Source: Candidatus Methylacidiphilales bacterium
GTDB lineage: Bacteria; Verrucomicrobiota; Verrucomicrobiia; Methylacidiphilales; CAZTYG01
Reading direction: 5' to 3'
NCBI GenBank assembly: GCA_033875315.1
Contig: JANRJG010000019.1
Location: 1-49,454 of the forward strand
Length of the DNA stretch: 49,454 nucleotides
Shown here: positions 3,804-35,119 of the stretch, piece after piece
How positions within the stretch are numbered: position 1 is the first letter of the stretch
Layout of the letters: each line of letters opens with the position of its first letter
Position numbers and translations under genes: made by a program
Notes under the pieces: generated by a model
Databases searched by the model: none
The model's input: the letters and a program-made list of their open reading frames with translations, nothing else
Told to the model about the DNA's origin: nothing

Positions 3804-4388
3804 TTAGAGCCCATCCAATGACCGGTTCAGGAGGAGAACGTTGATAGTGGACTCGCCTAGGATGCCCAGGGTGGGGCCTTCGGTGTGTTTCTCCACCAAG
3901 GTGCGGACGGCTTCGACACCCAGGCCACGGGCGCGGGCGACGCGGTTGATCTGGAGCTCGGCGTTGCGGGGGCTGATGTGGGGGTCCAGACCGCTGGCTG
4001 AAGCGGTCACGGCATCGGCGGGGACGGGGGCATCCGCAGCCAGGCCGTTCACGGTCCGATACGCCGCCACGCGCTCTTTGATGGCGTCGTGCAGTTTCTG
4101 CGAAGTCGGCCCGAGGTTGGAGCCACTGGAAGAGGCGGCATCGTAGCCCACCGCTCCGGCGGCCGAGGGTCGCGAATGGAAGTAGCACTCCCCGCTGAAC
4201 GGTTGGCCGAGCAAGCGTGATCCGTGAACGTTGCCCTCTTTATCGGTGATGAGGCTGCCGTTGGCCTGATCGGGGAACACGCCTTGGGCGATCAATGTGA
4301 CAATCAGGGGATAGGCCCCGCAACAAACGAGGGCCAGGACCAGGGTGGCGCCGAGGGCGGCGCGGAATTCACTGAAAAGTTTTTTCAT
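3804..4388 (-). CDS. kdpC: KdpC, potassium-transporting ATPase subunit C
   Basis: This 194-residue protein has a single N-terminal membrane helix (about 12-35, LGATLVLALVCCGAYPLIVT) and the KdpC signatures GSRLLGQPF, YFHSRPSA, SGSNLGPT and SGLDPHISP. KdpC is the small subunit that ties KdpB to the KdpA channel and raises ATP affinity. It is last in the kdp operon, 29 bases after kdpB. The length is normal. Confidence 0.97.
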   Translation of the reverse strand: MKKLFSEFRAALGATLVLALVCCGAYPLIVTLIAQGVFPDQANGSLITDKEGNVHGSRLLGQPFSGECYFHSRPSAAGAVGYDAASSSGSNLGPTSQKLHDAIKERVAAYRTVNGLAADAPVPADAVTASASGLDPHISPRNAELQINRVARARGLGVEAVRTLVEKHTEGPTLGILGESTINVLLLNRSLDGL

Positions 4389-4417
4389 GGGATTTATTTC
4401 AAAACTATGGGGTCGGA

Positions 4418-6463: not shown

Positions 6464-6509
6464 GAAATCTGATGGGTTGAAGGGAGGAGAGGTTGAAAGG
6501 ATGAGTGAG

Positions 6510-8285: not shown

Positions 8286-8299
8286 GGTGCTTGAGTGAT

Positions 8300-8383
8300 T
8301 TAGAATTTTTCGGGCCAGATCATGGCCACGAAGAGGTAGATGAAGAGGGCGAGGCCAATCAGGCCGGTGATGAGGGTTTCCAT
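8300..8383 (-). CDS. kdpF: KdpF, small stabilising subunit
   Basis: This 27-residue peptide is a single membrane helix, starting METLITGLIGLALFIYLFVA and ending MIWPEKF. The xxPE(R/K)F ending and length are typical of KdpF, a lipid-like stabiliser of the KdpABC complex. It sits between the extra small ORF at 8395-8478 and kdpA, 14 bases from kdpA. Confidence 0.92.
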   Translation of the reverse strand: METLITGLIGLALFIYLFVAMIWPEKF

Positions 8384-8394
8384 GGGATGCGTTC

Positions 8395-8478
8395 TCAGAG
8401 TTTTTCGCAGAAGCGGGCATAGAGCGCGGCGGCGATGAAGAATGCGGCGCTGACCGAGAGGTATAGGATGTCGTCCAT
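8395..8478 (-). CDS. Small membrane peptide preceding kdpF
   Basis: An ATG at 8478 opens 27 codons reading MDDILYLSVSAAFFIAAALY then ARFCEKL. It is one helix with an acidic N-terminus and a basic, cysteine-containing end. It is the first gene of the kdp operon, 11 bases before kdpF. From memory, similar peptides (x-LYLxxxxxFFxxxxxYxxxCxxL) precede kdpF in many bacteria and are usually left unannotated. Its likely role is an extra small subunit or assembly aid, but no function is proven by the sequence. Confidence 0.7.
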   Translation of the reverse strand: MDDILYLSVSAAFFIAAALYARFCEKL

Positions 8479-8602
8479 GACACCAACATGCCCGAATCGT
8501 GGCGGCGGTGGTAGTTAAGGAGCGATGTCAAAGCGCTAAGATTCCGCTAAGAAGTTGTTTTGGTGGTGCTCGATGGCACGATGAAGAGGTAGATTAACCC
8601 CA
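8479..8602. promoter_or_regulatory. Divergent kdp intergenic region
   Basis: These 124 bases separate the leftward kdp structural operon from the rightward kdpDE genes and must contain both promoters. A direct repeat, GCGCTAAG at 8533-8540 and CCGCTAAG at 8544-8551, is spaced 11 bases centre to centre. That is the usual layout for OmpR-family regulators, so it is a candidate KdpE site. I see no convincing -10/-35 pair. Confidence 0.4.
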
Positions 8603-11293
8603 GTGAACGACGACCTTCGTCCCGATCCTGACGCCCTTCTGGCCCGGTTGGATTTGAAAACTCCAAAGACCAAAAAAGGACGGTTGAAGATCTTCCTAGG
8701 CATGTGTCCTGGGGTGGGCAAGACCTATGCCATGCTCGAGGCTGCCAGGGCGGCCAAGCGCGGAGGATTGGACGTCGTGGCGGGCGTGGTCGAAACCCAC
8801 GGTCGGATCGAGACGGTCGCCCTCTTGGAGGGGTTGGAGGTCATGCCCCGTCAGTCATTCGATTACAAGGGGGCCATCCTTCAGGAAATGGATCTGGACG
8901 GCCTCCTGCGCCGTCGCCCAGAGGTGGCGCTGGTCGATGAACTGGCCCACAGCAATGCCCCCGGCAGTCGACATCCCAAGCGCTACCTGGATGTCCGGGA
9001 ACTGCTCGATGCCGGGATCGATGTATGGACTACGGTCAACATCCAGCACATCGAAAGCCGGACCGATGTGGTCCGGCAGATCACCGGGGTGGCCGTGCGG
9101 GAGACGGTGCCCGATTCCCTGGTGGATGATGCGGACGAAATCGAACTGGTCGACCTGGCCCCCGAAGCCCTGCGTCGCCGCCTGGCCGAGGGAAAAGTCT
9201 ATCTGGGCGAACGCGCCCATGCGGCGGCAGAACATTTTTTCAAATCGGAACAGCTCACCGCCCTGCGGGAAATGGCCCTGCGCTACACCGCAGAGAAAGT
9301 GGACCAGGAGTTGCGAGAACTTCTGGCCACGCGCCGGATCAAAGGGCCGTGGAAGAGCCATGAACGCCTGCTGGTGGCCGTGGGGGCCAGTCCCTACGCG
9401 GAAAGCCTGATCCGCTGGACGCGGCGTCAGGCGGGGATGCTCGATTGTCCGTGGACCGCGCTCTGCATCGACACCGGTGAAGAGTTGGATGCGGCGACCC
9501 AGTCCCGTCTGGGGCGCAATCTGGCCCTGGCCCGCCAATTGGGGGCGGACGTCGTCACCCAACCGGGGACCGAGGTGGCGGGCGCGGTGCTGGAGTATGC
9601 CCGGGAGCACCACATCACCCAGATCGTCCTGGGCAAAACCGAAGCCCCGCCCTGGTGGCGTCACTGGCAGCCCTCGTTTTCCGACCGGATCATCCGGGAG
9701 AGCGGGAAGATCGATGTGTTGGTGGTTCGTCCGGAGAAGGACTGGCGGGTGGAGGAAAGCCTACCGGTGCCCCGCCTGCCCACCCCCTGGACACTGCGGC
9801 CCTGGCTGGAGGCGGCGGGTTGGACCGCAGCCCTGACCGGGGCAGGCTGGATCATCCAGGCGCAAACCGGTTATTGGACGGTTTCCCTGATCTACCTGCT
9901 GGGCATTGTGCTCGCCGCCCTCCGCCTGCCGCGCGGACCGGTGCTGGCTCTGGCGGTGACGTGCGCACTGGTCTGGGACTACCTCTTCATCCCCCCATTC
10001 CACACCTTCTCCATCCGGGAGACACACGATGTCTTCATGTTCCTGATGTTCCTGGTGGTGGCACTGGTCATCGGCCACCTCACCAGCCGCTTGCGTGAAA
10101 GGGAGAAAGTCGAGCGGGTGCGGGAACGCCGGACGGCCGCGCTGCTGGCTTTCACCCAGACCCTGGCCCTGGAACCGGAGACCGGTCAGGCCCTGCGGCA
10201 GGCCTGCGTGATGCTGTCCCGTTTGTTCCAGTGTGATGTTGGGATTTTGAGGCGGAAGGACCCGGCTTCGCTGGTCGAAACCCCTGCGGAAGGATCCACG
10301 TTTTATCCCGGCGAGAAGGAATTCGCCGTGGCCCGGTGGGTTTACCAGCACCGCCAGCCGGCCGGCCGGGGCACCGACACGCTGGCCACGGCCGAGGCCC
10401 TGCATCTGCCCTTGTTCACGCCGGTCCTTTCCTGTGGCGTACTCCTGGTCAAGCCCCGCCAGGACCGGGCCTGGGAACCGGCTGAACGGGCCATGTTGGA
10501 AAACTTCGCCGCCCAGCTGGGATTGTTCCTCCAGCGCGACCACATCGCTGAAGCGGTGCAGCGGGCGGAAGTGGCCCATCGTTCCAGTGCGCTGCAGAAG
10601 AACCTGCTCGACAGTGTTTCGCATGAATTGAAAACCCCGCTGGCCACGCTCCAGGCCGCGGCCGAGGCCCTCTCCCGGGTGGCCACCACCGGGGCCGCCT
10701 CCGGACTGGCGGATGAAATCACCGCCGCCACCTCCCGGCTGCACCGCATCGTCAACCACTTGCTGGAGATGACGCGGCTGGATTCGGGAAAAGTGGAACC
10801 CCGGCTGGAGTGGTGCGACCCGGCGGAAATCGTGGGGGAGGCGGTGAAGCAACTGCGGGAGACGCACCCGGGGCGGCCGGTCCAGATCGAGGTGGAAGGT
10901 TTGCCGTGGGTGCTGACCGATCCGGAACTGGTGGGCAAAATCCTCTTCAATCTTTTACACAACGCCGCCCTCTACACCCCGGCGGAAATGCCGGTCAAGG
11001 TGCGGGCGGCTTGGAACCAGGGACACCTGCGCTTCCGTGTGCGCGACCACGGGCCGGGCCTGGGCGATACGGACCCCACACGCCTGTTTGAAAAGTTTTA
11101 CCGCCCGCCCGGGTCCCCGGCGGGAGGGAGCGGGCTCGGACTGGCCCTGGCGCGGGGATTCGCCCGCACCCTGGGCGGCGACCTGAGCGCGGCCAACGCC
11201 CCCGACGGCGGGGCGGTCTTCCGCCTCGATCTTCCGTCCGAGTCGCGCGAAGATACACCGACCGCCACCCATGCCGACCGCCCTGATCATTGA
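8603..11293 (+). CDS. kdpD: KdpD, osmosensitive potassium sensor histidine kinase
   Basis: This 896-residue protein has full KdpD architecture. An N-terminal KdpD domain carries Walker A GMCPGVGKT (33-41) and ALVDELAHSN. A UspA-like domain follows from about 252 (RLLVAVGASPYAESL), then four membrane helices at about 405-495, a GAF-like region at about 520-650, the phosphoacceptor His-674 in SVSHELKTPL, and an ATPase domain with NLLHNA, DHGPGLG and GSGLGLAL. It senses low potassium or turgor and phosphorylates KdpE. The start is a GTG at 8603. It overlaps kdpE by 23 bases and diverges from the genes it controls. Confidence 0.96.
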   Translation: MNDDLRPDPDALLARLDLKTPKTKKGRLKIFLGMCPGVGKTYAMLEAARAAKRGGLDVVAGVVETHGRIETVALLEGLEVMPRQSFDYKGAILQEMDLDGLLRRRPEVALVDELAHSNAPGSRHPKRYLDVRELLDAGIDVWTTVNIQHIESRTDVVRQITGVAVRETVPDSLVDDADEIELVDLAPEALRRRLAEGKVYLGERAHAAAEHFFKSEQLTALREMALRYTAEKVDQELRELLATRRIKGPWKSHERLLVAVGASPYAESLIRWTRRQAGMLDCPWTALCIDTGEELDAATQSRLGRNLALARQLGADVVTQPGTEVAGAVLEYAREHHITQIVLGKTEAPPWWRHWQPSFSDRIIRESGKIDVLVVRPEKDWRVEESLPVPRLPTPWTLRPWLEAAGWTAALTGAGWIIQAQTGYWTVSLIYLLGIVLAALRLPRGPVLALAVTCALVWDYLFIPPFHTFSIRETHDVFMFLMFLVVALVIGHLTSRLREREKVERVRERRTAALLAFTQTLALEPETGQALRQACVMLSRLFQCDVGILRRKDPASLVETPAEGSTFYPGEKEFAVARWVYQHRQPAGRGTDTLATAEALHLPLFTPVLSCGVLLVKPRQDRAWEPAERAMLENFAAQLGLFLQRDHIAEAVQRAEVAHRSSALQKNLLDSVSHELKTPLATLQAAAEALSRVATTGAASGLADEITAATSRLHRIVNHLLEMTRLDSGKVEPRLEWCDPAEIVGEAVKQLRETHPGRPVQIEVEGLPWVLTDPELVGKILFNLLHNAALYTPAEMPVKVRAAWNQGHLRFRVRDHGPGLGDTDPTRLFEKFYRPPGSPAGGSGLGLALARGFARTLGGDLSAANAPDGGAVFRLDLPSESREDTPTATHADRPDH

Positions 11294-11945
11294 CGACGAG
11301 CCCGCCATCCGGCGCCTGCTGCGGCTGGCGCTGGAGGGTGAGGGCTACCGGGTGCTGGAGGCGGATGAAGGCCGGGTGGGTTTGTTGGAGGCCGCGCGGG
11401 CGAGGCCCGAGGTGATCGTCCTGGATCTCGGTTTGCCGGACAAGGACGGACTGGAGGTCCTGAAAAATCTGCGCGAATGGAGCCAGATCCCGGTGTTGAT
11501 CCTCTCGGTGCGCGACGACGAGCAGGACAAGGTGCGGGCGCTGGATCTGGGGGCGGACGACTTTGTCAACAAACCGTTCGGCACGTCCGAATTGCTGGCG
11601 CGGCTGCGGGCGGTGCAGCGCCGGGCGGCGGAACAGGAAAACGAAAGTCCGGTCTTCCGGAGCGGCGGGCTGGAGGTGGATTTGGCCGCACGCCGGGTGC
11701 GGGTGCAGGGCGTGGAAACCAGACTCACGGCCACAGAATACCATTTGTTGCGCCTGCTGATACGCCACGCCGGAAAGATTGTGACACAGAAACAATTGCT
11801 GCGCGAGGTTTGGGGACCGCAGGCCGAGGAACAGACGCAATACCTCCGTGTGCACCTGACCCACCTGCGGAAAAAAATTGATCCCAAGGGCACGGGGTTG
11901 GTGGAAACCGAACCCCGGGTGGGTTATCGGTTGAAAGCCAGTTAG
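11271..11945 (+). CDS. kdpE: KdpE, OmpR-family response regulator
   Basis: The 224 residues have a receiver domain with acidic pair IIDDE, phosphoacceptor Asp-52 in VLDLGLPD, and the switch lysine in VNKPFG. A winged-helix domain follows, with LTATEYHLLRLLIRHAG and the EPRVGYRL ending. It activates kdpFABC. It is translationally coupled to kdpD by a 23-base overlap. Its stop codon overlaps the stop of the convergent resB gene, so there is no spacer between the two operons. Confidence 0.96.
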   Translation: MPTALIIDDEPAIRRLLRLALEGEGYRVLEADEGRVGLLEAARARPEVIVLDLGLPDKDGLEVLKNLREWSQIPVLILSVRDDEQDKVRALDLGADDFVNKPFGTSELLARLRAVQRRAAEQENESPVFRSGGLEVDLAARRVRVQGVETRLTATEYHLLRLLIRHAGKIVTQKQLLREVWGPQAEEQTQYLRVHLTHLRKKIDPKGTGLVETEPRVGYRLKAS

Positions 11946-13849
11946 GAATCTGAATGATTGCGGAGGGGAGGACGCAAATCAGGTCTGACCGGACGCAGGT
12001 AGAATAAACAGAAGATCCCGGTGCAGAGGATGAGGCTGCCCAGCCACTTGAAAATCCAGCCCGGGTCGCGGAGGATCTGGATGGAGGATTGCTCCAGATT
12101 CTCGGGGTTCCAACTGGCCTGGGACATCTTCCAGGTCAGGCCGGTCCAGCCGCGCCACCAGTCGTCGGGATAATTCATGGGTACGTTCATCGAGCACTTT
12201 CCGGTGACCTCGGACCCCTCGGGGGTGATGACGCGCAGCAGGCTGCGGAACTCGGAGGGGTTGCCGGTCCCGCCGTAACGTTCGAGCTGGAAGTCGTCGA
12301 GCTTGAGGCCGAAGGGCAGGGGCTCGGTGCGCCAGCCATAAGATAGTTTGAGCAGACCGTCTTTGGAAGGGGACTGGATGACCCAGCCCTGGGGGACCCA
12401 TTCCTCGATGCGTTCGCCGCCCCGGGTCAGGCGGACCAGGACCCCGGGAACCGGAGCATCCTGGCCGGGCAGGGTCATGGCGTTCGCCTCACGGGGGCGG
12501 AAGACGGTGTCACCGCTGGCCTTGGGCAGGACTTCTTCCACGGTGAAGGCCCAATCCGCCCATCCAGTGGTGAGGGGCGCACCGGGCGCGAGGATGCCCC
12601 GGGATTCCCCATGCTTGCGGGAGACGAGGACGTAACGGAGGCCTTTCCCATCGAAACCGGTGTAGAGGTCGAGCCGGTTGGCCGGCCCCTCCCCATCCCC
12701 CGCCGCCGCGGAACTTGTGATCGAGTGAGGATCGGTCGCAGCCACCGCAACCGGCACGGTGCGTCCGCGCAATTCCACCAGGATGGCGGGATTGTTGGGT
12801 TCATTGGAGAGGGTGACGGGTTTGTTGTCACGAAGTTGGAAGTCGGGCCAGTAGGAAATGGCGCGCAATTCCAGGCCGGTTCCCTTGAGCGGCCAGCTTT
12901 TGGGGATTTCCGAGGCTGGCGCGGTCAGGCTCCAGGAGTCCCCGCCACGGCTGAGTTCGATGATGAGCCGGCCCATTTCTTCGCGCAGCCTGACTTTCAT
13001 CCCGGTAGAACCACCTTGTATGGTTTTGGCGACCTGCTGGTCGGGCATCTTGGCGAAGGCGAAGATGTTTTCCACTACATCCACGGCGACCGCCACGGGG
13101 GCGCTTTTCTTGGCCGCCACGGATGAGGAGGAGGAAGGAGGATCGCCGGCAAGGAGGCGGATGCGGGCCAAGCCGAGGTCGAGAACTGAGGAATCAGCCT
13201 CCCCGAGCCAGAGCCAGGGCTCAAGTGTCTGGTTCATCATCGCCGTCTTGAGTCGGATGCGAACGGCAGGTGCGCCTTCGGCGGACGGACGGGCGGTGAA
13301 GACGGGCTGGAGGGTTTCCGTGGCCCCGACCGCTTCGAGCTTCCAGCCGGCGTGGTCACCCAGCCGGAGCGGACGCTCCGGTGTGGGCAAGCGGTGGATG
13401 ATGCCGACGGGGAAGCGGACCACAGGCTGGTCGCCGGCGGAGAAGCGGACTTGCTTTTCGTTGATGAGCAAGGACGAAGCGGGGTCGCGGCCCTCGAAGA
13501 GGGTGATGCTGCCCTCGATGCCGAAGATTTTCCCGATGAAGGCCCCGAAGAGCAGGATGATGATGCCGAGGTGGGTGAGGAGGAAGCCGGTGTGGGCTTT
13601 CTTCCAGGGGAGGCGCGAAAAGGCCACGGTGGCGAGGTTCAGAACGAGGAGCAGAAGCCAGAGGTTGAACCACCAGGCTTCATAGATGTAGGCCCGGGCG
13701 ACTTCGGCCGTCAGGCGGGACTCGTAAATGGTGCCGACGATGGAAGCAACGATGAGCACGGCCAGCAGCAGGAGGGCCAACTGGAGAGAAGCAAAAAAGC
13801 GGAAGACCGGATTCCTGCGGATGGCGGGTGAGAGGGAACCAAAGGGCAT
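11942..13849 (-). CDS. resB: ResB-like cytochrome c biogenesis protein
   Basis: This 635-residue protein starts MPFGSLSPAIRRNPVFRFFA. It has the ResB/CcsB core: helices at about 17-38 (ASLQLALLLLAVLIVASIVG), about 58-80 and about 86-110 (GFLLTHLGIIILLFGAFIGK), a large periplasmic domain, and a last helix near the C-terminus (GSLILCTGIFCLFYLRPV). In System II maturation ResB works with a CcsA/ResC partner to deliver haem to CxxCH motifs outside the inner membrane. It ends the operon encoding a ten-haem cytochrome, which fits well. No CcsA gene is in the window. The frame is open far upstream of the ATG at 13849, but that part overlaps the preceding gene out of its frame. Confidence 0.85.
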   Translation of the reverse strand: MPFGSLSPAIRRNPVFRFFASLQLALLLLAVLIVASIVGTIYESRLTAEVARAYIYEAWWFNLWLLLLVLNLATVAFSRLPWKKAHTGFLLTHLGIIILLFGAFIGKIFGIEGSITLFEGRDPASSLLINEKQVRFSAGDQPVVRFPVGIIHRLPTPERPLRLGDHAGWKLEAVGATETLQPVFTARPSAEGAPAVRIRLKTAMMNQTLEPWLWLGEADSSVLDLGLARIRLLAGDPPSSSSSVAAKKSAPVAVAVDVVENIFAFAKMPDQQVAKTIQGGSTGMKVRLREEMGRLIIELSRGGDSWSLTAPASEIPKSWPLKGTGLELRAISYWPDFQLRDNKPVTLSNEPNNPAILVELRGRTVPVAVAATDPHSITSSAAAGDGEGPANRLDLYTGFDGKGLRYVLVSRKHGESRGILAPGAPLTTGWADWAFTVEEVLPKASGDTVFRPREANAMTLPGQDAPVPGVLVRLTRGGERIEEWVPQGWVIQSPSKDGLLKLSYGWRTEPLPFGLKLDDFQLERYGGTGNPSEFRSLLRVITPEGSEVTGKCSMNVPMNYPDDWWRGWTGLTWKMSQASWNPENLEQSSIQILRDPGWIFKWLGSLILCTGIFCLFYLRPVRPDLRPPLRNHSDS

Positions 13850-13938
13850 GGTGAAAGATAGAAAGCTAAAGGCAAAAAGCGAAAAGCAAAGGGCGGGAAT
13901 TCCGGCACGGGGCCGGAACGGTCCATGGCTCAACAGGT

Positions 13939-15519
13939 TCAGCGGGTGGGTTGTCTGGGGAATTTGGCGAAGGGGAGGCGGGCGCCGCGGTAGGCAAAGG
14001 CATCGGCGCGAATGGCAGGCGGTGCGGTGAAGCGTCCGAGTCCGTCGGCACGGAGGGCGGCGGTTCCGGCACAGGCGACGAGATCGTCCTGGTCGATGGC
14101 GTCGCCGGAGATGCCGATGGCACCAACGAGTTCGGTGCCCTTGTAGAGGGGCTGGCCGCCGGGGAAGATGGTGATGCCATTGGCGAAAAAGCGGTTGGGC
14201 GCCGAGGCGGAGGGGTTGAGCAAGTCGGCCGGGACAATCGAAGTATCGGAATAGAAGGGCTGGAGTCCGAAAAAGGGACCGGAGTTGGTGTCGTTGATGC
14301 CGGGCGGATAATAAAACTGGGACAAAAAGCCGACACTGCGGGAGGAGAGGGCTTTGGTGTTGCTGGAGAAGCCGACGCAGGTCCGGCCCTTGGCGACAGC
14401 GAAGTCCCACGAACGGGTGACCGCATCGGGCATTTTGAAAATACCGAGGATGGGGGGCGGCACGAGTGGGAGGACGTTGGGATTGCCCCGGCCGACGACG
14501 GCGATCCACATGGAAGTGGGGCCGCCGAGCGGCCGGCGGACCGCGGTGCGGGTTGAAAGCGCCGCGCGCACGGCGGCCTCGATGATGTTGTTGACATCGG
14601 CGGCAGTGAGGCGGAGGGCGGAGGCGTTGGCGACATCCGTGACCACGGGTGCGCGGAATTCCCCGGCCACTCCGGCCACGGTGCCCGGGGGGTAGATATT
14701 GACATTGGGGTAACCCGCCGGGAGGGGTGACCCGAGAAGCGGGAAACCCGCCACCGCCGCGCCCACCGGGGCGATGACGGCCGGGAGCCGGGTCGAGGTC
14801 CGGACGTAGGGCACGCTGATGCCATCGAGGAAAATCCGATCGGAGCGTATGCGCGCGGGAGGTTCGAAACCTTTTTGTCCCGCCAAGGCCACATCCTCAT
14901 CGGTGTCGGGCTCCACAGCGGCGGAAGGACTGATGGTGTCGTCCCCATCTCCGGCCACACCCACGCCCCCGACCAGGACGCCGTTCTTGTAGAGCGGCAC
15001 GCCGCCACAAAAGCCACTGAGCGAAGTGAAGCGGATGGCGCCGCCGAGTGTGCCGATGGGCGGCGCGACAGCGGGGTTGACGGCGTAGACGGGGAACGGT
15101 TGCTGGCGGAAACGGTTCACGTCCGAGTAGGGAAGATTGGAAAAATTGACCCCGGTGAGGGGCCCGTTGTTGCGGTTGCGCAGGCCCGGGGGGAAATTCG
15201 GCTGGACGAGGTAGTTGGCGGAGCGGGAAGTCAGGGCATTCTGGTTGCTGTTGAGGAAGCAAGCCGTGCCCCCCCGGGATATGGCGTCCCCGATGCGCTG
15301 GGCGCTCGGAGCGGCCCCAGTGGCCCAGACGACGAGGACATTGCCCTCACGGTCGACCACGGCGATGGTGCTGTCGGGGGAGACGATGGCGGCGCGGCTG
15401 GAGGCCTGGTTGACGATTTGCTGCACGTCGACGGCGCTGAGGATCTGGGCCATGGCCGGACTGGGCATCGAGCCACCGATGCAGGCGATAACGGCAATGA
15501 GGAGGAGGCGTGTATTCAT
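13939..15519 (-). CDS. Secreted double-domain GlcG/HbpS-type haem-binding protein
   Basis: The 526 residues begin with a signal peptide (MNTRLLLIAVIACIGG, cleavage near PAMAQ). Two related halves follow, about 28-250 and 300-515, each like the GlcG/HbpS (DUF336) fold. Matching pieces are LTSRSANYLVQ with LSSRSVGFLSQ, and PLYKNGVLVGGVGVAGDG with PLYKGTELVGAIGISGDA. HbpS-type proteins bind haem or help in redox sensing; the exact role of this duplicated form is unknown. It overlaps the cytochrome gene by four bases (ATGA), so the two are coupled. A haem-trafficking or structural role in the periplasm is a fair inference. Confidence 0.8.
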   Translation of the reverse strand: MNTRLLLIAVIACIGGSMPSPAMAQILSAVDVQQIVNQASSRAAIVSPDSTIAVVDREGNVLVVWATGAAPSAQRIGDAISRGGTACFLNSNQNALTSRSANYLVQPNFPPGLRNRNNGPLTGVNFSNLPYSDVNRFRQQPFPVYAVNPAVAPPIGTLGGAIRFTSLSGFCGGVPLYKNGVLVGGVGVAGDGDDTISPSAAVEPDTDEDVALAGQKGFEPPARIRSDRIFLDGISVPYVRTSTRLPAVIAPVGAAVAGFPLLGSPLPAGYPNVNIYPPGTVAGVAGEFRAPVVTDVANASALRLTAADVNNIIEAAVRAALSTRTAVRRPLGGPTSMWIAVVGRGNPNVLPLVPPPILGIFKMPDAVTRSWDFAVAKGRTCVGFSSNTKALSSRSVGFLSQFYYPPGINDTNSGPFFGLQPFYSDTSIVPADLLNPSASAPNRFFANGITIFPGGQPLYKGTELVGAIGISGDAIDQDDLVACAGTAALRADGLGRFTAPPAIRADAFAYRGARLPFAKFPRQPTR

Positions 15520-18500
15520 GGTCGGATCATGGCGGTGGGAACGCCGGGTGTCGGGTTTTCGGGCCGGACAGGGGGCACTTCGGGGGTGAAGGTGAAAGGA
15601 GCCGGGGCGGGCAGATCGCGGCCGTTGCGGAAACGGAGGCGGCCGTCTTTCCAGACGGTATCGTCAACATAGTAGAGGTCGCCATCCGGACGGGCGCGTT
15701 TTTCCAACCGGGCCAGGGCGTCGGAGCCGTGGCGGAAGAAGGCGGCCATTTCATCGAGGTGGAAGGGACGGGAGCCACGGCGGCCGAAGACAACGGTCTG
15801 GTTGCCGGTCTCGTCGACCACGCGGTCGCGGTCGAGGCCGCGCCCGACCACGAGGGCCTCGCCTTTGGTTTTGAAATTGGCGATGAGCTTGGGGTTGGGT
15901 TTGGGGCTGAATCCCATGTGGCCGGGGACGGTGTCGGGGGAAATCATCTGGAGGACACGGAACCCATTCCGTCCGTCGGCCAGGAGGGCGAACATGGAGG
16001 CGTTGACCGAGCCGATCTTGACGTCGTGCAGGTCGTTGATTTTTCCATCGGCGGTGAAGAAGGAATCGATTCGGGGTTTCTCGGGATTGAGGATGTCGAC
16101 GATGGCCAATCCCTGCGAACCGGCCGCGACGTAGGCGTAGGTGCGGGCGAGGTAGAACTTGTGGGCTTCCTGGAAGGGGACGACGGCACCGGGGACAGCC
16201 TTGGGATGGACGGGATCCGTGATGTCGACGGTCTTCAAACCTTCTTCATCGGCGATGAAGGCGTAGCGGAACTGGATCTGGACATAATGGGGTTTCTTGA
16301 GGAACGGTGCTCCGAGCTCGCCGACCAAGCGGGGGTGGGCGGGGTCGTTGATGTCGACGACCATGAGGCCGCGGTCGCAGGTGACGTAGAGGTAGTGTCC
16401 GGCGACGAAAGAATGGGTGGCGCCGTGGAGTTTGCCCTCCGGATTGAAGACGACGTCTTTCTTGAGGAAGTTGTTGCGCGGGTTGCCATCGACAAGGGTG
16501 GCCACGTTGACCATGACCAGGCCTTCCTCGCGGTCGGTGATGTAGGCGTAGGCGTAGAGCATGTGGATGGGCTGCTCTTCATTGGCGGGGTTGCGGACGC
16601 GGGCGGGGTCGAGCGCGAGGGTGCTGGGAAGGGTGACGGATGTGGCGTCGTGGGTTTTGACGTAGGTGCGCCAGCCGACGGGGGAGAAGGGGGCGGTGAC
16701 GATGCGTTCGGCAAATCCTTTGTTCTGGATGGTGGAGACATCCACGACCTCGAAGCCGCCATGGCCCTGGGCGGTGTAGAGGAATTCACCGCGGAGGGCG
16801 AGATCGACGACCTCCGGGTGTTCACCGGTGAATTTGTTGATCCATTGCTTGTAGGCGTCGTAGCCGTGGTGGTGGTGGGCTTCGCGGAGGTGGAGGTTGT
16901 CCTCTTCGAGGTGGCGTTTGTAGAAGTCGGGGTAGGCCAGCCGGTGGAGACTGCTGCCGATGGCGGCCTGGGGTTCGGACTGCTCGGTCCAGGCGATGGC
17001 GTAGAGGCCCTCGCCGCCGACGCCGACGAAGGCGTAACGTCCGAAGAAATTGACGGTGCCGGTGCCGAAGCCGAGCAACTGGGTCATCCAGGCGTTGTTG
17101 TCGTTGGCGGAGGAGAGGTGGCAATCGGCACAATTCTTGGTCGTGCCAACGCCGCTGGTGGTGTGGGCGAAGTGGGGGTTGAAGGCCTGTCCGCTGTAGC
17201 CCTCCTGAGAGATGGTCTGCTGTTGGTGGTAAATCCATTCGCGCTGGGCGTTCTGGGAACTGACGATGACGGCGCTGGAGGAGCGGATGACTGCAAGCTG
17301 GTTCTTTTTGATGGTGCCGTCGAGGCCGAGCATGAAGACATCGTCACGGATGACCTGGGGGTTGTAGGACGTGTAGAAACGGGAGACGGTGCCTTCGAAT
17401 TTGTTGGTCGGTTGGTAGTTGTTGTTTTTCAGCGGCAGGTGGCAACCGAAGCAACTGGTGGCCCAGGAGGTGTGGCAGACCTGGCAGCCGATGGCGTCGT
17501 TGTCGTGGGCCAGCTCGGCCTTGCGGGTGGCGTTGCCCGCCGGGAGGTTGCCCCAGGTCCAGCCGTCACGCTTGAGGGTCTTGGCGTAGCGGGAGGCGGC
17601 GTTGTATTGGTGCGAGCGCGGGTCGAGGGTGTCGAGGGTCTGGGGGATTTCCCAGCGGAGATCGGGGCTCATGTTGGACTGCTGGAAGAGGCGGTTGCCC
17701 TCCCAGGTGAAACGCGGGCCGAAGGGGGTGCTGCTCTTGTTGAGGTCGATGTGGCCGCCATTGCCCGAGGTGACCAGGGTGGGGCGGGAGGCGGCGGTGC
17801 CGTGGCAATCGATGCACTCGATGCTGGTGGCGTTGCGGGGCTCGCCATAAATCAGGCCATTTCCATGGACATCACTGAGGAAGTGGCAATCGGCGCACTG
17901 CATGCCTTTCTCAAGGTGGATATCCTTCAGGTGGACAGCCTTGCTGAATTTTTTCGGGTCATCATGGGAGATGGGATTGTCTCGCAGGTCGAGGAGCGTG
18001 CCCTGGCGGTCCTTCTTGAAGACGGCACGGAAGACCCAGCCGTGTCCGTGGTAGTCGGCGAATTGGGTTTGTTTCAGCTTGGGGTTGAGCTCGGATACTT
18101 TTTCAAGGAAGGCGAGATCTCCCCAGAGGCCCCGGACGGCGGCCTCTTCGGGGTTTTTACGCATTGAGCGGGTGATCTCGGCGGGCGTGGGGTGCTTTTG
18201 TTCCTTGGGATACATGAAGTTCCCGTCGGATTCCTGGTCCCACCAGATGTAGCCGAGGTAGGGGTTGACGAAGAGGTTGCCCTGGTGCATGTGGCAGCTC
18301 ATGCACTGGCTGGAGGGAATGGAGCGGGTGAACTGGTGCTTGATCGGGTGACCCCGTTCATTCTTGGGGATGGTGGGGTCGGCGCTGAAGGAGAGTCCCT
18401 GGTGGCCGTATTTGGCGTAGTGGCCGGAATTGTGGGGTGAACGGTCGTTGGCGTAAACGACATGACAGGCGGTGCAACCGCTGGAGCGGTAGTCGCCGGG

Positions 18501-19424
18501 ATGGTCGTTCGAGCCGAGGAAGGCGAGGAGCGGGTCATTCAGGCGGGTTTTTTGCAGGCCGAGGAAGACCGGGTCGGTACGGTTGTTGGTGCCGAGGCCG
18601 CGCTCGGAGAGGCGGCGGATCGGGCGTCCCGGGGGTTCGAAGGGATTGGGGTTGCCGAGTTCGGGAATTTTTTCGCCGCCTTTCTCGAAGATGCGGAGGA
18701 TGTTGCCGGGCTGGCTGAAGGCATAGCGTGGAATCGGGTCGAGGCGGGGGAGGATGCCGTGTTTTTGCGTCATCTCGGGGGTCACTTCGACCGGACTCTT
18801 GAGGGCGAGGGCGGTGCCGTTGGCGCTATAGGCCTGGCCGAAGACGTAGTTTTTTTCATGGTAGCTGCCGTTGTTGTAGAGGGCGGCCCCCCAGAGCATG
18901 GCGCCATGGTTCATCATGCTGTGGCCGACCTGGTCGATGATCTGCTGGTGACAGTCGCCGCAGGCTTTGCTGGCCACCCGCAGGTCGCCGGGGTTGACGA
19001 ATTGGATGAACTCGGGGGACTCGTGATTGAGGAGGACGCTGGAATCGACGGGATTGGCGGAGGACTTCCAATATTCCGGGTTGAGGGGGTGGACGTGGGC
19101 CTGCTCCTTGGATAGGCCGCGGGCGGGGTTGCCGCCGTGGCAATCGGTGCAGCCGAGTACGACGGCCGGGGAGGCGTGCATGTCCTCGGAGCCCTGGTGG
19201 CACTGGAGGCAGCCCGTGCTTTTGGCCGCGGCCTCGGCGGCGGTCTGGTCGATGCGGTTGCGCGCGGGCAACTTGACCGCCTTGGGCACGGGTTCGGCGG
19301 CGGCGGTGACCGGGCCATGGCCGTGGTTGTCCCCGGCAAGGAGACGGGCGGGGTCAGACAGGACCAGGCCCGCAATCCCGATGGAGGCGGCAAGGAAGAA
19401 AAGTGGCAAGGGGCGGTAGTTCAT
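15516..19424 (-). CDS. Ten-haem c-type cytochrome fused to an LVIVD beta-propeller
   Basis: This 1302-residue exported protein (signal peptide about 1-30) has ten CxxCH motifs: CLQCH, CTDCH, CGDCH, CTACH, CMSCH, CADCH, CIDCH, CQVCH, CFGCH and CADCH. They lie between residue 72 and roughly 770. A C-terminal region of about 400 residues carries LVIVD-type repeats such as GLMVVDINDPAHPRLVG, GLKTVDITDPVHPKAV and GLAIVDILNPEKPR, which form a beta-propeller usually found at cell surfaces. It should carry electrons across the periplasm or outside the cell. It starts one base after the stop of the outer-membrane barrel gene and is followed by the HbpS and ResB genes, so the four form one unit. No lipobox is seen. 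Confidence 0.85.
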   Translation of the reverse strand: MNYRPLPLFFLAASIGIAGLVLSDPARLLAGDNHGHGPVTAAAEPVPKAVKLPARNRIDQTAAEAAAKSTGCLQCHQGSEDMHASPAVVLGCTDCHGGNPARGLSKEQAHVHPLNPEYWKSSANPVDSSVLLNHESPEFIQFVNPGDLRVASKACGDCHQQIIDQVGHSMMNHGAMLWGAALYNNGSYHEKNYVFGQAYSANGTALALKSPVEVTPEMTQKHGILPRLDPIPRYAFSQPGNILRIFEKGGEKIPELGNPNPFEPPGRPIRRLSERGLGTNNRTDPVFLGLQKTRLNDPLLAFLGSNDHPGDYRSSGCTACHVVYANDRSPHNSGHYAKYGHQGLSFSADPTIPKNERGHPIKHQFTRSIPSSQCMSCHMHQGNLFVNPYLGYIWWDQESDGNFMYPKEQKHPTPAEITRSMRKNPEEAAVRGLWGDLAFLEKVSELNPKLKQTQFADYHGHGWVFRAVFKKDRQGTLLDLRDNPISHDDPKKFSKAVHLKDIHLEKGMQCADCHFLSDVHGNGLIYGEPRNATSIECIDCHGTAASRPTLVTSGNGGHIDLNKSSTPFGPRFTWEGNRLFQQSNMSPDLRWEIPQTLDTLDPRSHQYNAASRYAKTLKRDGWTWGNLPAGNATRKAELAHDNDAIGCQVCHTSWATSCFGCHLPLKNNNYQPTNKFEGTVSRFYTSYNPQVIRDDVFMLGLDGTIKKNQLAVIRSSSAVIVSSQNAQREWIYHQQQTISQEGYSGQAFNPHFAHTTSGVGTTKNCADCHLSSANDNNAWMTQLLGFGTGTVNFFGRYAFVGVGGEGLYAIAWTEQSEPQAAIGSSLHRLAYPDFYKRHLEEDNLHLREAHHHHGYDAYKQWINKFTGEHPEVVDLALRGEFLYTAQGHGGFEVVDVSTIQNKGFAERIVTAPFSPVGWRTYVKTHDATSVTLPSTLALDPARVRNPANEEQPIHMLYAYAYITDREEGLVMVNVATLVDGNPRNNFLKKDVVFNPEGKLHGATHSFVAGHYLYVTCDRGLMVVDINDPAHPRLVGELGAPFLKKPHYVQIQFRYAFIADEEGLKTVDITDPVHPKAVPGAVVPFQEAHKFYLARTYAYVAAGSQGLAIVDILNPEKPRIDSFFTADGKINDLHDVKIGSVNASMFALLADGRNGFRVLQMISPDTVPGHMGFSPKPNPKLIANFKTKGEALVVGRGLDRDRVVDETGNQTVVFGRRGSRPFHLDEMAAFFRHGSDALARLEKRARPDGDLYYVDDTVWKDGRLRFRNGRDLPAPAPFTFTPEVPPVRPENPTPGVPTAMIRP

Positions 19425-19425
19425 A

Positions 19426-21732
19426 TCACCAGGTCAGGGACAGGGAAACGAAGGCACTGTATAGGAATTGGACCTCGTCTTCGGGATAATCTTTGAAGCC
19501 CACCACCTTGCTGCGGGCCTGGTCGTAAATGTCGTTGTATCCTTCGTCGGGAATGAGGGTGGCAAAGCCCGCGGTGATGACGATGTTGTCGTTGAGCAGT
19601 GGGCGCGAGATGATGCCGATGCTGAGGTCTCCGCCGACGGAGGAATCGACGTCGTTGGTGAACAGAACCTGCTTGATCACCCCGGTGTCGGCGAAACGGA
19701 TGTAATTGGCGTTGAGAAAAAGACGGGTTTCCGGGGTGAGTTCGATGTCGGTGCCGAGCCCCCAGATGAGGACGCCCGGGTTGACGAAATTGGACTGGCC
19801 CTCGAACTTGCTGGTGCGGAGATTGGGGATGAGGCTGTTGCGCTGCTTGAGGTTGACTCCGGTGCCAGCGAGGTTGAAGCCCTGCCGGACCCAATAGCTG
19901 AAGGGGCCCCCGAAGAGATTGGGATTGTCGATCACGGAGTCGAAACCGCCGCCCACACCGTCCTCCGGGTTTCCATCCCCGGAAGCGTAGAAGAACGCGG
20001 CTTTGTAGCGGATCCAGTCGCGGTCGTAGGACAACTCGAGGTGGCACTGCTGGGCATCGATGCGCGTTTGCCGGCCCTCGATGTTGTTGATTTCTTCCCC
20101 GCCAAAGGCTTGATAAAACGAATGGGAAATGTTGACGCGGCCGATCTTGCCCTCGCCGGAAAAACCGACGTAGTAGGCATGGATGTCATGCACGGTGGCC
20201 GTGCCGATGGGGGCGGGACGGGCGACGAAGCCGTTGCGGTCGTAATGTTCCTTGCCCTTGTCGAAGTTGGCCACCGTGTTCAGGCTGACGGTGTATCCGG
20301 GAACGATGAAATCCTGGCGGAAGACGTTGGCGACAAAAACTTGTTGGTCTCGATCATCAAAGGTGTTGAGTTCGCTGTTGGTGTCTTTTTCCCGGAGGTC
20401 GAAATAGGCCAGGTTGTACTGCCAGAGGTTGTTTTCCGCATTGCCAAAGAAGCGGAGTCCCAAGTTGGTGTCACGGAAGAGCAGGCCGCGGAAATCACTG
20501 TTGAAGGTCTGGTAGCCCAGGCGTGAGGAGATGAAATCGTAGTTGTCGGAAACATCCGCCAGGTGAACTTCGAAAAAGCCCTCCTGAAGGGCCCACTTGT
20601 CGCGGAGGCGGGAGGTGTAATCGTTGCCGCTGTTGCCCCCTTCCGTGTCCAGATTGTTGTCGAGGAAATCGGCAATGTCATTGGGGTTGGTGCCGGGCCC
20701 GAGGGGGAAGGCGGGGTTCGTGTTGGAGCCACCGGCGTCGCCACGGGGGTCGGGTTGGAGGGCGTTGGTTTCGCGCGCTTCGGTGTAATTGACATTGTAG
20801 ACAGGCTGCAGGCGCAATTGCCAGGCCACCGGCTTGAAGACCTCGGTTTCACCCTGGAAAAAGTCGAGGGTGAAGATGAAGTTCTGTTGGACGGTGTAGA
20901 TGTCTCCCTCCCCGAAAAACTCCGAGCTCCGGGGGTTGGCGGAGCTGATTCCACTGGGGACGGGCAGCCGCCGGGTTTCGAATTCCGTGAAACTGGCCAC
21001 GGCCAGTCTGAGGAAGATATCCTCGCCCAGGACGGGCACATCGCCCTTCAGGACACTCTGCCGGTAAGGGTGCCAAAGTTCCGGCAGGGGATCCTGGAAG
21101 GCGGTTTCGGCGGTTTCACGGTTTTTGTAGCGATCACGGGTCTGATAGGGAATATTCCAGCGGCTGGGGACGACCTCGGTGTGGGCGGGCAGGCCTTCTT
21201 CGAGGAAGGAATCTCGGTTGCCGAATTTGGGCAGTTTGCGGCGCCCAAGCCGGACATCGTCGCGTGGCAGGACCAGTTCCTCCGGGAGGGGTTCCAGTCC
21301 ATAGACCGGCGGGGGGGCCAAAACCGGGGTCATCCACTCCAACGGGCCGGTGGCTGTATCGTCGGCACCCGGGTCCGGGTTGAACACCCCCTGGACATCG
21401 GCCACACCTTCAGGAACAACCGGGCCTTGCGGGGGGCGAAGGTCTTGCGGCGCCACCGCGGTTTCCTCCGCGACGGACTCAACTGGATCTTCAGCAGCGG
21501 GCAGTGCGAGGTCGTCCGGCAACGCGTGCCCAGGGTCGGGAGCGGGTGGTGTTGATGCAGATAAGTCGGGAGGCGAGGATGAAGGGCTCTCAGGCGGGGG
21601 AGCCGGGTCGTGCTGGGCGGGCGAAACGGCAGGTGTCGAGGTCGGTCGCTTACATGAAAGGCACAATAGAGACGCCGCCAGACCTGCAATCAAAAGCAGG
21701 GACCGGTAAATGCCTGAAATCGGAATCGACAT
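19426..21732 (-). CDS. Outer-membrane beta-barrel (candidate porin of a porin-cytochrome conduit)
   Basis: From the ATG at 21732 this is 768 residues; a further ATG at 21762 would add ten. A hydrophobic signal (LLLIAGLAASLLCLSC) ends in a lipobox-like cysteine. It is followed by about 100 residues rich in proline, serine and acidic residues, as in a flexible linker. From about residue 200 the sequence alternates like membrane beta-strands with many aromatics. It ends SAFVSLSLTW, the terminal aromatic typical of BAM-assembled barrels. I cannot place it in a named family; DUF1302-like or MtrB-like porins are possible. Its coupling to the decahaem cytochrome gene suggests that it houses or anchors the cytochrome. 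Confidence 0.7.
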   Translation of the reverse strand: MSIPISGIYRSLLLIAGLAASLLCLSCKRPTSTPAVSPAQHDPAPPPESPSSSPPDLSASTPPAPDPGHALPDDLALPAAEDPVESVAEETAVAPQDLRPPQGPVVPEGVADVQGVFNPDPGADDTATGPLEWMTPVLAPPPVYGLEPLPEELVLPRDDVRLGRRKLPKFGNRDSFLEEGLPAHTEVVPSRWNIPYQTRDRYKNRETAETAFQDPLPELWHPYRQSVLKGDVPVLGEDIFLRLAVASFTEFETRRLPVPSGISSANPRSSEFFGEGDIYTVQQNFIFTLDFFQGETEVFKPVAWQLRLQPVYNVNYTEARETNALQPDPRGDAGGSNTNPAFPLGPGTNPNDIADFLDNNLDTEGGNSGNDYTSRLRDKWALQEGFFEVHLADVSDNYDFISSRLGYQTFNSDFRGLLFRDTNLGLRFFGNAENNLWQYNLAYFDLREKDTNSELNTFDDRDQQVFVANVFRQDFIVPGYTVSLNTVANFDKGKEHYDRNGFVARPAPIGTATVHDIHAYYVGFSGEGKIGRVNISHSFYQAFGGEEINNIEGRQTRIDAQQCHLELSYDRDWIRYKAAFFYASGDGNPEDGVGGGFDSVIDNPNLFGGPFSYWVRQGFNLAGTGVNLKQRNSLIPNLRTSKFEGQSNFVNPGVLIWGLGTDIELTPETRLFLNANYIRFADTGVIKQVLFTNDVDSSVGGDLSIGIISRPLLNDNIVITAGFATLIPDEGYNDIYDQARSKVVGFKDYPEDEVQFLYSAFVSLSLTW

Positions 21733-21922: not shown

Positions 21923-21945
21923 CAAATGTTTGAAACGACTGTTTC
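21923..21945 (+). promoter_or_regulatory. Candidate TetR-family operator
   Basis: Two overlapping inverted repeats, CAAA-tg-TTTG (21923-21932) and GAAAC-gact-GTTTC (21932-21945), lie just before the regulator's ATG at 21948. A TTGACA box is at 21914-21919, but no good -10 follows. The position suits autoregulation of the efflux operon. Confidence 0.4.
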
Positions 21946-21947
21946 GC

Positions 21948-22616
21948 ATGGTCCAACCTGAACTGCATGCGCATGACCCCGGTCACGCCGAAGCGATTCG
22001 TGAACGCATCATGGATGCGGGGGAAAAGGCCTTTGCCGAATGGGGTTTTGCCGCGGCCTCGCTGCGCCAGATCACCAGCGAAGCCGGAGTCAATCTGGCT
22101 GCGGTCAATTATTACTTTGGTTCCAAGGACGTTCTTTACACCTCGATCCTGTCAAGGGTGGTCCAACCCCTCAACCAAGCCCGCATCGCCCTGCTGGAGA
22201 AAGCCCTCCTGCGGGCGGCCGGAAAGCCCTTGGCGCTGGAAACCATCCTGGATGCCTTCTGTCGCCCCTGCTTCGAGTTTTCGCGCCAAAAGGAGAAACA
22301 GCACCTGCTGGTCCTCCTGGGCAAATCTCTTTACGAAAGCGACGCCTTCATGATCCGGCTGATGGAGCATGAATGGAAACCGGTGGTGGTTCATTTTGAG
22401 CGCGAGCTCAAGCGCACGCTGCCCGAGTTGCCATCGGCCGAACTTACCTGGCGATTCCATTTCGCCATCGGGGCCATGATCCACACCATCAGCCAGGCCC
22501 GTGCGCTCGAATACCTCTCCAATGGGGAATGCAACATGACGGACGGCGAAGAAGTCCTGCGACGCTTGGTGGCCTTTGGGGCCGCAGGCATGCGCCACTC
22601 CCCCGACAAACACTAA
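21948..22616 (+). CDS. TetR-family repressor (CerR/YbiH-like) of the efflux operon
   Basis: The 222 residues carry a TetR helix-turn-helix (FAAASLRQITSEAGVNLAAV followed by NYYFGSKDVLY). The longer ligand-binding part resembles the CerR/YbiH C-terminal domain (YESDAFMIRLMEHEWKPVV). Such proteins usually repress a neighbouring transporter until a toxic ligand binds. I prefer the ATG at 21948 to a TTG at 21930 because the palindromes lie just upstream. It is followed after five bases by the TolC-like gene. Confidence 0.85.
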   Translation: MVQPELHAHDPGHAEAIRERIMDAGEKAFAEWGFAAASLRQITSEAGVNLAAVNYYFGSKDVLYTSILSRVVQPLNQARIALLEKALLRAAGKPLALETILDAFCRPCFEFSRQKEKQHLLVLLGKSLYESDAFMIRLMEHEWKPVVVHFERELKRTLPELPSAELTWRFHFAIGAMIHTISQARALEYLSNGECNMTDGEEVLRRLVAFGAAGMRHSPDKH

Positions 22617-22621
22617 CAAGT

Positions 22622-24034
22622 ATGAACCGTCCCTTTGTGAACACCCTCCATAGCCTGGCCCTGCTCCCGGCCTTTTTGCTGTTACTTCCGCTCCCACCGG
22701 CCAGCGCGGCCTCTGCTGAAGCAGACGCGGCCAAAGCGGCAGCGAGAAAGCTGGACTCCTCCAAACCCACCCCGGTTCCCCTCCCGGTCGAGACTCTGGA
22801 TCTCGGACTCTGTTACCAACTCGCCCTCTTGCGCATGGAAAGCATCGGCCTGAGTGAAGCGGATGTGCGGGTGGCCCAGGCCCGTTTCTGGCAGGCCGTC
22901 GGCGCCGCCCTGCCCACGCTGAAGGTTTTGGGCGAACAGTCCGTATACAACGACCGCAGCGCTTCCTTCGGCGTCAACAATTCCGGCGGCGGGATTGGCG
23001 GACCGGCGCCCAAAATCGACAACTACCCCCAGACCGCCCGGGTCAATCTCAAGGTGCCTCTTTTTTCCGGGATGCGTGATTTCCAAGTGGCCCGCGCCGC
23101 GCGGGCCGACATCGAAGGCAACCGCCAGACCATCCGGCGGGTCCGACAAAACCTCTACCTCGATGTCGCCGAGGCTTTCTACCAAGTCCTGCAATACGAG
23201 GACGACCTGCGTGTGCTCGGGGATATCGAACAGACCCTGCTCGAACGGGTGGCCGACCAGGAACGACGGGTCAAGCTGGGGAAATCACGGCAAAGCGAAC
23301 TCATCCAAGCGCGCAACGACCTGGCCCAGGCCCGGGTCAGCCTTGAGCGCACACGTGGGCTGCACGGGGCCTCGCGCGAACTCCTGCTTTTCTACACCGG
23401 ACTTCCTGAGGAACAGTTGAAAATCAAGGACACCGCCCCGCCTCCGCCGGGCAGCCTGACCCTGGCGCATTACCTGGAAAAATCCGGCCAGCGGCCCGAT
23501 GTTCTTGCCGCTGTCGAGGCCGAGCGTTCCGCCCGGGCCCAGCTCTCCGCCGCCAAGGGGGAACATTGGCCCACCCTCAGCTTCGAGGGAAACTACTACC
23601 TCTACGACTCGGACAAAATCCAGGACGGGGAGTGGAACGGCTTCCTCACCCTGGAAATCCCGATCTTCGACGGGGGCAGCATCGAGGCCCGGGTCGATGA
23701 AAACAAAGCGCTCTTCGCCAAGAAGCAACTCGACGTCTCGAAGCTGGAACGGGAAACGGTCCGCGACATCCGCACGGCCTGGAATAATTTCAACTCCTCC
23801 CTGGCCGAACTGGCCCGCACCGACGAAGCGGCCCGCACCGCGGAGATGAACTACACCGCCCAGAAGGCCGACTACGAACTCGGGGTGGTCAAGAGCCTCG
23901 ATGTCCTCGATGCCCTCCGTTCCTGGCAGGACACCCGTCGCGATCTCATCGCCGCCCACCTCGCGAGCAAGCTCAACCTGGTCAAACTCCATGTCGCCGC
24001 CGGGGACATCGATCAAGGACCCCTTAAGAAGTAA
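22622..24034 (+). CDS. TolC-like outer-membrane efflux protein
   Basis: The 470 residues start with a signal peptide (LALLPAFLLLLPLPPASA). Two OEP repeats follow with long helical stretches (VAEAFYQVLQYEDDLRVLGD; LARTDEAARTAEMNYTAQKA) and strands suited to a trimeric channel-tunnel. It would form the exit duct for the adjacent RND pump. The ATG at 22622 lies five bases after the tetR stop and just before the signal peptide. It ends five bases before the pump gene. Confidence 0.9.
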   Translation: MNRPFVNTLHSLALLPAFLLLLPLPPASAASAEADAAKAAARKLDSSKPTPVPLPVETLDLGLCYQLALLRMESIGLSEADVRVAQARFWQAVGAALPTLKVLGEQSVYNDRSASFGVNNSGGGIGGPAPKIDNYPQTARVNLKVPLFSGMRDFQVARAARADIEGNRQTIRRVRQNLYLDVAEAFYQVLQYEDDLRVLGDIEQTLLERVADQERRVKLGKSRQSELIQARNDLAQARVSLERTRGLHGASRELLLFYTGLPEEQLKIKDTAPPPPGSLTLAHYLEKSGQRPDVLAAVEAERSARAQLSAAKGEHWPTLSFEGNYYLYDSDKIQDGEWNGFLTLEIPIFDGGSIEARVDENKALFAKKQLDVSKLERETVRDIRTAWNNFNSSLAELARTDEAARTAEMNYTAQKADYELGVVKSLDVLDALRSWQDTRRDLIAAHLASKLNLVKLHVAAGDIDQGPLKK

Positions 24035-24039
24035 GAAGT

Positions 24040-35107: not shown

Positions 35108-35119
35108 GCCACACGCTGC

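Follow-up and report, generated by a model that had tools for sequence, protein, structure and literature searches.

The contig JANRJG010000019.1 of a Candidatus Methylacidiphilales bacterium (assembly GCA_033875315.1; 49,454 nucleotides, analysed as a whole and called here the window) carries a gene for an outer-membrane beta-barrel directly followed by a gene for a secreted multiheme cytochrome, which raises the question of whether such a pair conducts electrons across the cell envelope and, if so, in which direction and with which partners. A sequence-only reading had proposed that four coupled genes, encoding a barrel with a terminal tryptophan, a ten-CxxCH cytochrome, a double GlcG/HbpS protein and ResB, form a porin–cytochrome conduit with its own haem-attachment factor. 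The conserved unit is in fact the pair formed by the barrel (hereafter POR) and the cytochrome (CYT), with GlcG often near, and not the four-gene set, since just 5 of 86 loci have ResB in the vicinity of CYT. This pair very probably takes part in an envelope electron chain. On balance, it would be the outer half of an outward trans-envelope chain, whose inner half is encoded at another place in the genome and comprises an iron–sulfur protein (FES), a b-haem membrane protein (CYB) and a further decaheme cytochrome (MHC2). The parts of the pair are as follows.

19426..21732, minus strand: POR, outer-membrane beta-barrel of 768 amino acids, starting with ATG
21018-19429, minus strand: 18-stranded barrel of POR, approximately residues 239-768, in the AlphaFold2 model
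15516..19424, minus strand: CYT, secreted decaheme cytochrome of 1302 amino acids, with a haem region and a C-terminal LVIVD beta-propeller
17118..19211, minus strand: haem region of CYT, residues 72-769, with ten c-haem sites (from the alignment)
15735..16787, minus strand: LVIVD beta-propeller region of CYT (PF08309), approximately residues 880-1230, limits approximate

A conserved porin–cytochrome pair

Orthologues of CYT were found in 7 other genomes among the 116 searched (8 with its own genome), with identities of up to 81%, and at least 552 relatives were found in GTDB contigs. The best 80 of these were kept, so that the resulting set of 86 loci, and the counts drawn from it, describe the closest relatives and not a random sample. 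POR is present in 77 of the 86 loci, GlcG in 51, MHC2 in 34, CYB in 30 and FES in 29, in a clustering from which L014 and L016, copies of L025 and L042, were excluded. In 81 loci, the available sequence extends 300 nucleotides or more upstream of CYT, and in 76 of these POR immediately precedes CYT in the same orientation; the median gap of 3.5 nucleotides is approximate, because the start of each open reading frame (ORF) was set at the first start codon that follows a stop. Conservation of the POR-CYT pair is strong. In the CYT tree (74 rows), eight phylum-level groups are represented, with full support for a branch that has Verrucomicrobiota on one side. Within this phylum, the system is patchy, being found in 11 of 383 genomes and 8 of 192 genera. 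The proposal that four genes are conserved together thus survives for POR-CYT and, as a common companion, for GlcG, and fails for ResB.

Two side observations concern these loci. In L012 (G029), the frames of both POR and CYT are broken in a draft genome, by assembly error or decay. Downstream of CYT in L018, L023, L025, L033, L063, L065 and L093, recurrent reductase-like proteins (cluster 22) occur, often two in tandem, which look NADP reductase-like by eye.

An inner-membrane module inherited with the pair

On contig 1 of the same genome, and hence on another contig than POR-CYT, where it was missed by the sequence-only reading, an inner module is encoded by three genes in a row: FES (567 amino acids), a cNMP-domain/4Fe-4S protein; CYB (311 amino acids), a membrane protein with two HX13H b-haem motifs, present here as two WX3HX13H motifs along with SGXXG; and MHC2 (489 amino acids), which has ten CxxCH motifs and is predicted to be an anchored or periplasmic decaheme cytochrome. 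Among the CYB ORFs of the related loci, 28 of 30 carry two WX3HX13H motifs and 26 of 30 SGXXG, while the FES of L015 matches PF13247 (41.5 bits, cut-off 26.2). Of 39 well-flanked loci, 24 have genes of the inner module in their flanks, and several loci show the order FES-CYB-MHC2-POR-CYT. Two of the 45 largest ORF clusters, those of CYT and MHC2, are the only ones whose median CxxCH count exceeds zero. Divergent to FES-CYB-MHC2 on contig 1 (L110, 6617-7813) is a gene for a 398-amino-acid protein with three CxxCH motifs and a cytochrome c554 domain, which may belong to the inner module.

The strongest evidence for one system in two halves is the matching inheritance of CYT and MHC2. In the phylum, MHC2 occurs in 11 of 383 genomes, the same 11 as CYT, and none holds only one of the two; that the same genomes were drawn in both searches rests on identical totals and handles, and the counts, drawn from 11 genomes in 8 genera and 5 families, lack phylogenetic independence. 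In the 116-genome search, MHC2 was found in 7 genomes, all among the 8 that bear CYT, the eighth genome being 85% complete. Since CYT and MHC2 lie on different contigs in four genomes (G000, G069, G100 and G113), this co-inheritance is not just linkage. As POR-CYT is accompanied by an inner-membrane part, its probable role is to carry electrons towards the outer membrane or beyond it.

A mechanism can be proposed on this basis. NAD(P)H or reduced ferredoxin would deliver electrons to FES, from which they would reach CYB, cross the inner membrane and be received by MHC2. The latter would reduce CYT docked at POR, and CYT would finally transfer the electrons to an acceptor at the outer membrane or outside it. 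Electrons moving outward would go down the redox gradient and along the membrane field. The genes found near FES also favor this direction, which we consider somewhat more probable than not: FAD/NAD/2Fe-2S reductases in 15 loci or NuoEF-like proteins in 7 (the latter named by eye), which would point to NAD(P)H-linked electron entry. In addition, the FES of L075, the one Acidobacterial FES scanned, begins with a NuoG/HoxU-like part.

A decaheme cytochrome fused to a propeller

CYT contains exactly ten CxxCH motifs, at residues 72, 92, 155, 317, 374, 510, 537, 647, 658 and 765. None of the ten haem sites is lost in any of the 74 aligned rows, with a CX4CH variant of the third site in 22 rows and of the first site in 2. 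The alignment leaves out, besides L012, 8 of the 82 full-length CYT for size (L041, L049, L055, L057, L058, L061, L064 and L091). Nine further histidine residues are conserved in 74 of 74 rows and three more in 72-73; these twelve residues are candidate distal ligands, enough to provide a second ligand for each haem. CYT matches Cytochrome_C7 (PF14522, 29.6 bits, cut-off 24.8), and its C-terminal third, overlooked in the sequence-only reading, matches the LVIVD repeat (PF08309, 85.2 bits, cut-off 20.2) in four stretches, the best at residues 1007-1035. No NCBIfam family cut-off is passed by CYT, and no relatives were found in viral contigs. In the open-access literature, no paper pairing LVIVD with CXXCH was found, and LVIVD with a c-type cytochrome turned up only for Methanosarcina surface proteins.

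A predicted 18-stranded barrel

POR consists of a signal-like helix (residues 6-24), some 200 largely disordered N-terminal residues and a barrel. It ends in LSLTW and hence in tryptophan, as had been noted; among the 71 POR ORFs longer than 500 amino acids, the last residue is tyrosine in 50, phenylalanine in 19 and tryptophan in 2. An FNPDPG motif in the disordered region is present in 42 of 78 ORFs. The AlphaFold2 model was built from a 69-row alignment that excludes L012 and L049, the latter for its overlong ORF. It reaches a predicted local distance difference test score (pLDDT) of 76, above 90 for most of the barrel, and a predicted template modeling score of 0.70, and DSSP assigns 18 long strands to it. 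The nearest solved fold is the alginate exporter AlgE (VIA Z 29.4, 3.0 Å over 363 residues), and OprD/Occ channels are also among the nearest. MtrB is not among the fold matches listed for POR, a listing that is not evidence of absence. The POR profile gave three chance-like matches only against PDB sequences, and the window POR matched no Pfam family, even at E 5, and no NCBIfam family at E 0.1, in libraries which presumably hold an MtrB/PioB model.

Where do the electrons go?

Several points weigh against electrons crossing the outer membrane in the manner proposed. POR models as an 18-stranded AlgE/OprD-like barrel, with a backbone radius of about 18 Å by the standard barrel formula, compared with about 26 Å for 26 strands. 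In the MtrAB complex, MtrB sheathes MtrA; MtrA is small, and MtrB is far wider than POR. As the barrel of POR is narrow, a similar sheathing of the haem region of CYT, which spans about 700 residues, is geometrically doubtful, and the model would leave docking, insertion of a part of CYT, or a channel role. No convincing lipobox or surface anchor was found in CYT, so that electron passage across the outer membrane is putative. The predicted model of the CYT haem region is poor (pLDDT 65.6), and a fold search with it against the PDB gave no match at E 0.001, the model being too poor to judge. Finally, the reductases near FES are missing from many loci, including the FES locus of the same genome. 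Of the conduit first proposed, the adjacent pair therefore stands, strengthened by a co-inherited inner module, and the barrel itself is supported by the model, though with the fold of AlgE/OprD and without a credible MtrAB-like sheath. That electrons leave the cell through or over the barrel, instead of a soluble acceptor entering through POR, is accordingly a proposal that we place slightly short of probable.

The most serious alternative, although rather unlikely, places CYT in the periplasm as the terminal reductase (or detoxifier) of a small soluble compound such as an oxyanion, with POR as the substrate channel; the same inner module would feed it and the electrons would stay in the cell. 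The fold of POR is indeed that of solute and polymer channels, and its strands carry many invariant charged residues. CYT also bears a weak, local resemblance to eight-heme nitrite reductases (E 4e-4) and shares a stretch with ExtM (equivalog NF040943), scoring 77.0 bits for the window protein and at best 95.6 bits among 8 proteins scanned (L076, residues 512-790 aligned to 251-505 of 599). In the ext cluster of Geobacter, the porin ExtI is reported to be needed for normal selenite and tellurite reduction and not for that of Fe(III) citrate (PMC5877670). Against this, the ExtM cut-off is 800 bits and CYT is hence not ExtM, no CxxCK motif was found in CYT, and a large propeller with ten conserved haems fits electron transfer as well as catalysis.

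GlcG and ResB

The two remaining genes of the cluster first described are the following.

13939..15519, minus strand: double GlcG/HbpS-domain protein of 526 amino acids (PF03928)
11942..13849, minus strand: ResB, System II cytochrome c biogenesis protein of 635 amino acids (PF05140), without an adjoining CcsA

The four genes run head to tail on the minus strand from 21732 to 11942, with a TGA-T-ATG junction between POR and CYT, an ATGA overlap between CYT and GlcG and a gap of 89 bases between GlcG and ResB, all as originally described; an alternative GTG start of POR, 10 codons upstream, is possible. Pfam supports the identity of both GlcG (62.8 bits, cut-off 25, in two stretches) and ResB (73.4 bits, cut-off 24.6).

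It had been suggested that both proteins are integral to the conduit, GlcG as a haem carrier and ResB for dedicated haem ligation, which now appears improbable. The arrangement that supports it recurs in G113, where ResB follows GlcG as in the window and is itself followed by CcsA. Moreover, the window ResB scores higher against the G113 ResB than against the genome's second ResB (452 versus 304 bits), and a lone CcsA on contig 38 is likewise closer to the G113 CcsA than to its own paralogue (577 versus 382 bits). The genome encodes two ResB (PF05140, contigs 19 and 26) and two CcsA (PF01578, contigs 26 and 38), so that ResB has a CcsA partner, as System II requires. Because the window ResB and the contig-38 CcsA are each closer to the G113 pair, a second, split ResB-CcsA set is likely, and the lone CcsA is the likely partner of the window ResB. 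The five loci with ResB near CYT are the window, L017, L045, L050 and L060; in the last three, a ResB-like ORF (38-45 bits) and then a CcsA-like ORF lie 1-4 kb downstream of CYT. Such rarity marks ResB as a local associate and not a core part, and it would supply c-haem ligation for its own genome. With another ResB-CcsA pair present and ordinary CxxCH motifs in CYT, the idea of an own haem-attachment factor is poorly supported, and ResB as a dedicated synthase for CYT was kept only as a minor rival.

GlcG has a better claim to association with the pair. It lies within 6.5 kb of CYT in 32 of 45 well-flanked loci, encoded on the opposite strand in 27 cases and on that of CYT in 5, and appears to be a frequent secreted helper. 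No histidine occurs anywhere in the 526 residues of the window protein, which speaks against a haem carrier integral to the conduit; haem binding is putative, and ligands other than histidine are possible. GlcG paired with a multiheme cytochrome was not found in the open-access literature.

Comparison with known systems

The claim that this set is unlike the Mtr, Omb/Oma and Pio types was borne out: no Mtr- or Pio-type profile was matched, and CYT has ten haem sites in place of eight or twelve. Like MtrCAB, MtoAB and PioAB, the pair would combine a decaheme cytochrome with an outer-membrane barrel, a likeness in the way of working (PMC6344600, PMC5877670). The MtrA/DmsE-type decaheme profile TIGR03508 gave no match with the window CYT at E 0.1 and only 19.6 bits, against 192.2, with that of L083. 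The Omb/Oma/Omc systems differ in having an 8-heme periplasmic and a 12-heme outer cytochrome (PMC6344600, PMC4245776).

The ext cluster (ExtH-S) likewise combines a porin with several multiheme cytochromes (PMC5877670). The shared haem stretch makes a common ancestor of CYT and ExtM likely; however, ExtM has 12 hemes and a model of 599 positions, with no room for a propeller, and Rieske/cytochrome b proteins stand in place of FES and CYB. ExtI is described as weakly like phosphate-selective porins (PMC5877670).

A porin with an 8-heme periplasmic cytochrome has been described in Verrucomicrobia, including strain IMCC26134 (PMC5615132). The possibility that this published system is POR-CYT was rejected, as a second pattern scan and locus L114 point to a separate locus. 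In IMCC26134, POR-CYT lies at about 2.42 Mb, whereas a 269-amino-acid cytochrome with 8 sites (7 CxxCH and 1 CX4CH) lies beside a 763-amino-acid barrel at about 2.59 Mb, some 170 kb away. L114 (6423-11271) encodes a 6-CxxCH protein, the small 8-site cytochrome and the barrel, and none of its ORFs matches the POR, CYT or GlcG profiles at E 10; judging from heme number and adjacency, it is likely to be the published system. By sequence comparison, POR-CYT is thus not of the Mtr, Ext or published 8-heme Verrucomicrobia type.

The inner half resembles PCC4, which comprises an inner-membrane protein with two WX3HX13H motifs and SGXXG, an upstream PF13247 Fe-S protein, a 10-heme cytochrome and a porin (PMC5566968). 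The same order is found here, FES-CYB in related loci and FES-CYB-MHC2 in the genome of the window, together with PF13247 in the FES of L015. The inner-membrane proteins of PCC3 and PCC4 have been likened to ferric reductase/NOX cytochromes (PMC5566968). PCC4, which was compared by its description, has 4-, 5- and 10-heme periplasmic cytochromes and, according to the available text, no extracellular one; here, two 10-heme cytochromes occur, one fused to LVIVD, along with GlcG. The cytochromes of PCC3 have about 20-35 haems each, as opposed to ten in both CYT and MHC2 (PMC5566968).

Eleven group 1 PCCs, each with a 4-5 kbp decaheme cytochrome gene beside a porin of about 20 strands, have been reported from metagenome-assembled genomes (MAGs) of the Sterkfontein karst in June 2026, with a ferredoxin-NADP reductase near 7 of the 11 (PMC13264449). 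Most clusters of this survey belonged to Gammaproteobacteria and Acidobacteriota, and two Planctomycetota MAGs were also represented. Judged from the described features, they are probably the same outer pair, although the CYT gene is 3.9 kb here and the available text of that study does not refer to LVIVD, GlcG, alginate or a separate inner half.

These likenesses bear on the weakest alternative, a chain running inward from an extracellular donor such as Fe(II), Mn(II) or humics, as proposed for PCC4 in iron oxidizers. In that case, the NAD(P)H-linked reductases near FES would need to work against both the redox gradient and the membrane potential. Even though the CYB motifs and the PF13247 protein upstream match PCC4 subgroup II, known from genomes of Fe(II) oxidizers, inward flow is very improbable, and the porin–cytochrome clusters of heterotroph MAGs have been read as possibly exporting electrons (PMC13264449).

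Genomic surroundings

At its 3' end, resB shares 4 bases with the convergent kdpE, the two genes meeting tail to tail, in a region (3804-11945) with kdpABC on the minus strand, divergent from kdpD and kdpE on the plus strand. Upstream of and divergent from POR (21930-27138) are genes for a TetR-family regulator, an outer-membrane efflux protein and an AcrB-type RND pump; a membrane-fusion protein was not found among these three scanned genes. A two-component system, a VIT/VWA protein and an EpsH-family exosortase are encoded in a row at 32961-38814. In the 5' region of POR, no sigma-70-like site was found, and the RNA fold is ordinary (z -0.36; 65 of 200 shuffles equally good).

Significance

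The outer pair is little described and has probably been glimpsed already in the karst survey (PMC13264449). More tentatively than the reading of POR-CYT as an outer half, the pair and GlcG may form the outer half of a distinct and widespread class of conduits, in which the wide sheath of MtrAB gives way to a narrow, 18-stranded AlgE-like barrel and a decaheme cytochrome that bears a propeller. Fed by an NAD(P)H-linked, ferric-reductase-like inner unit spending membrane potential, this class would serve as an electron-disposal line and not as a respiratory chain. It would span at least eight phylum-level groups, rich in heterotrophs and most of them not known for extracellular electron transfer. 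Common annotation would miss such a system, because POR matches nothing in Pfam or NCBIfam, CYT falls below NCBIfam cut-offs and the inner half is often located on a separate contig. The joint inheritance of both halves provides a concrete hypothesis, testable in the sequenced strains IMCC26134 and Pan216. If it is true, many soil, freshwater and groundwater bacteria, among them Verrucomicrobiota, Acidobacteriota and Planctomycetota, would share an electron-disposal line, with a bearing on the flow of carbon through anoxic soils and waters rich in humic substances.

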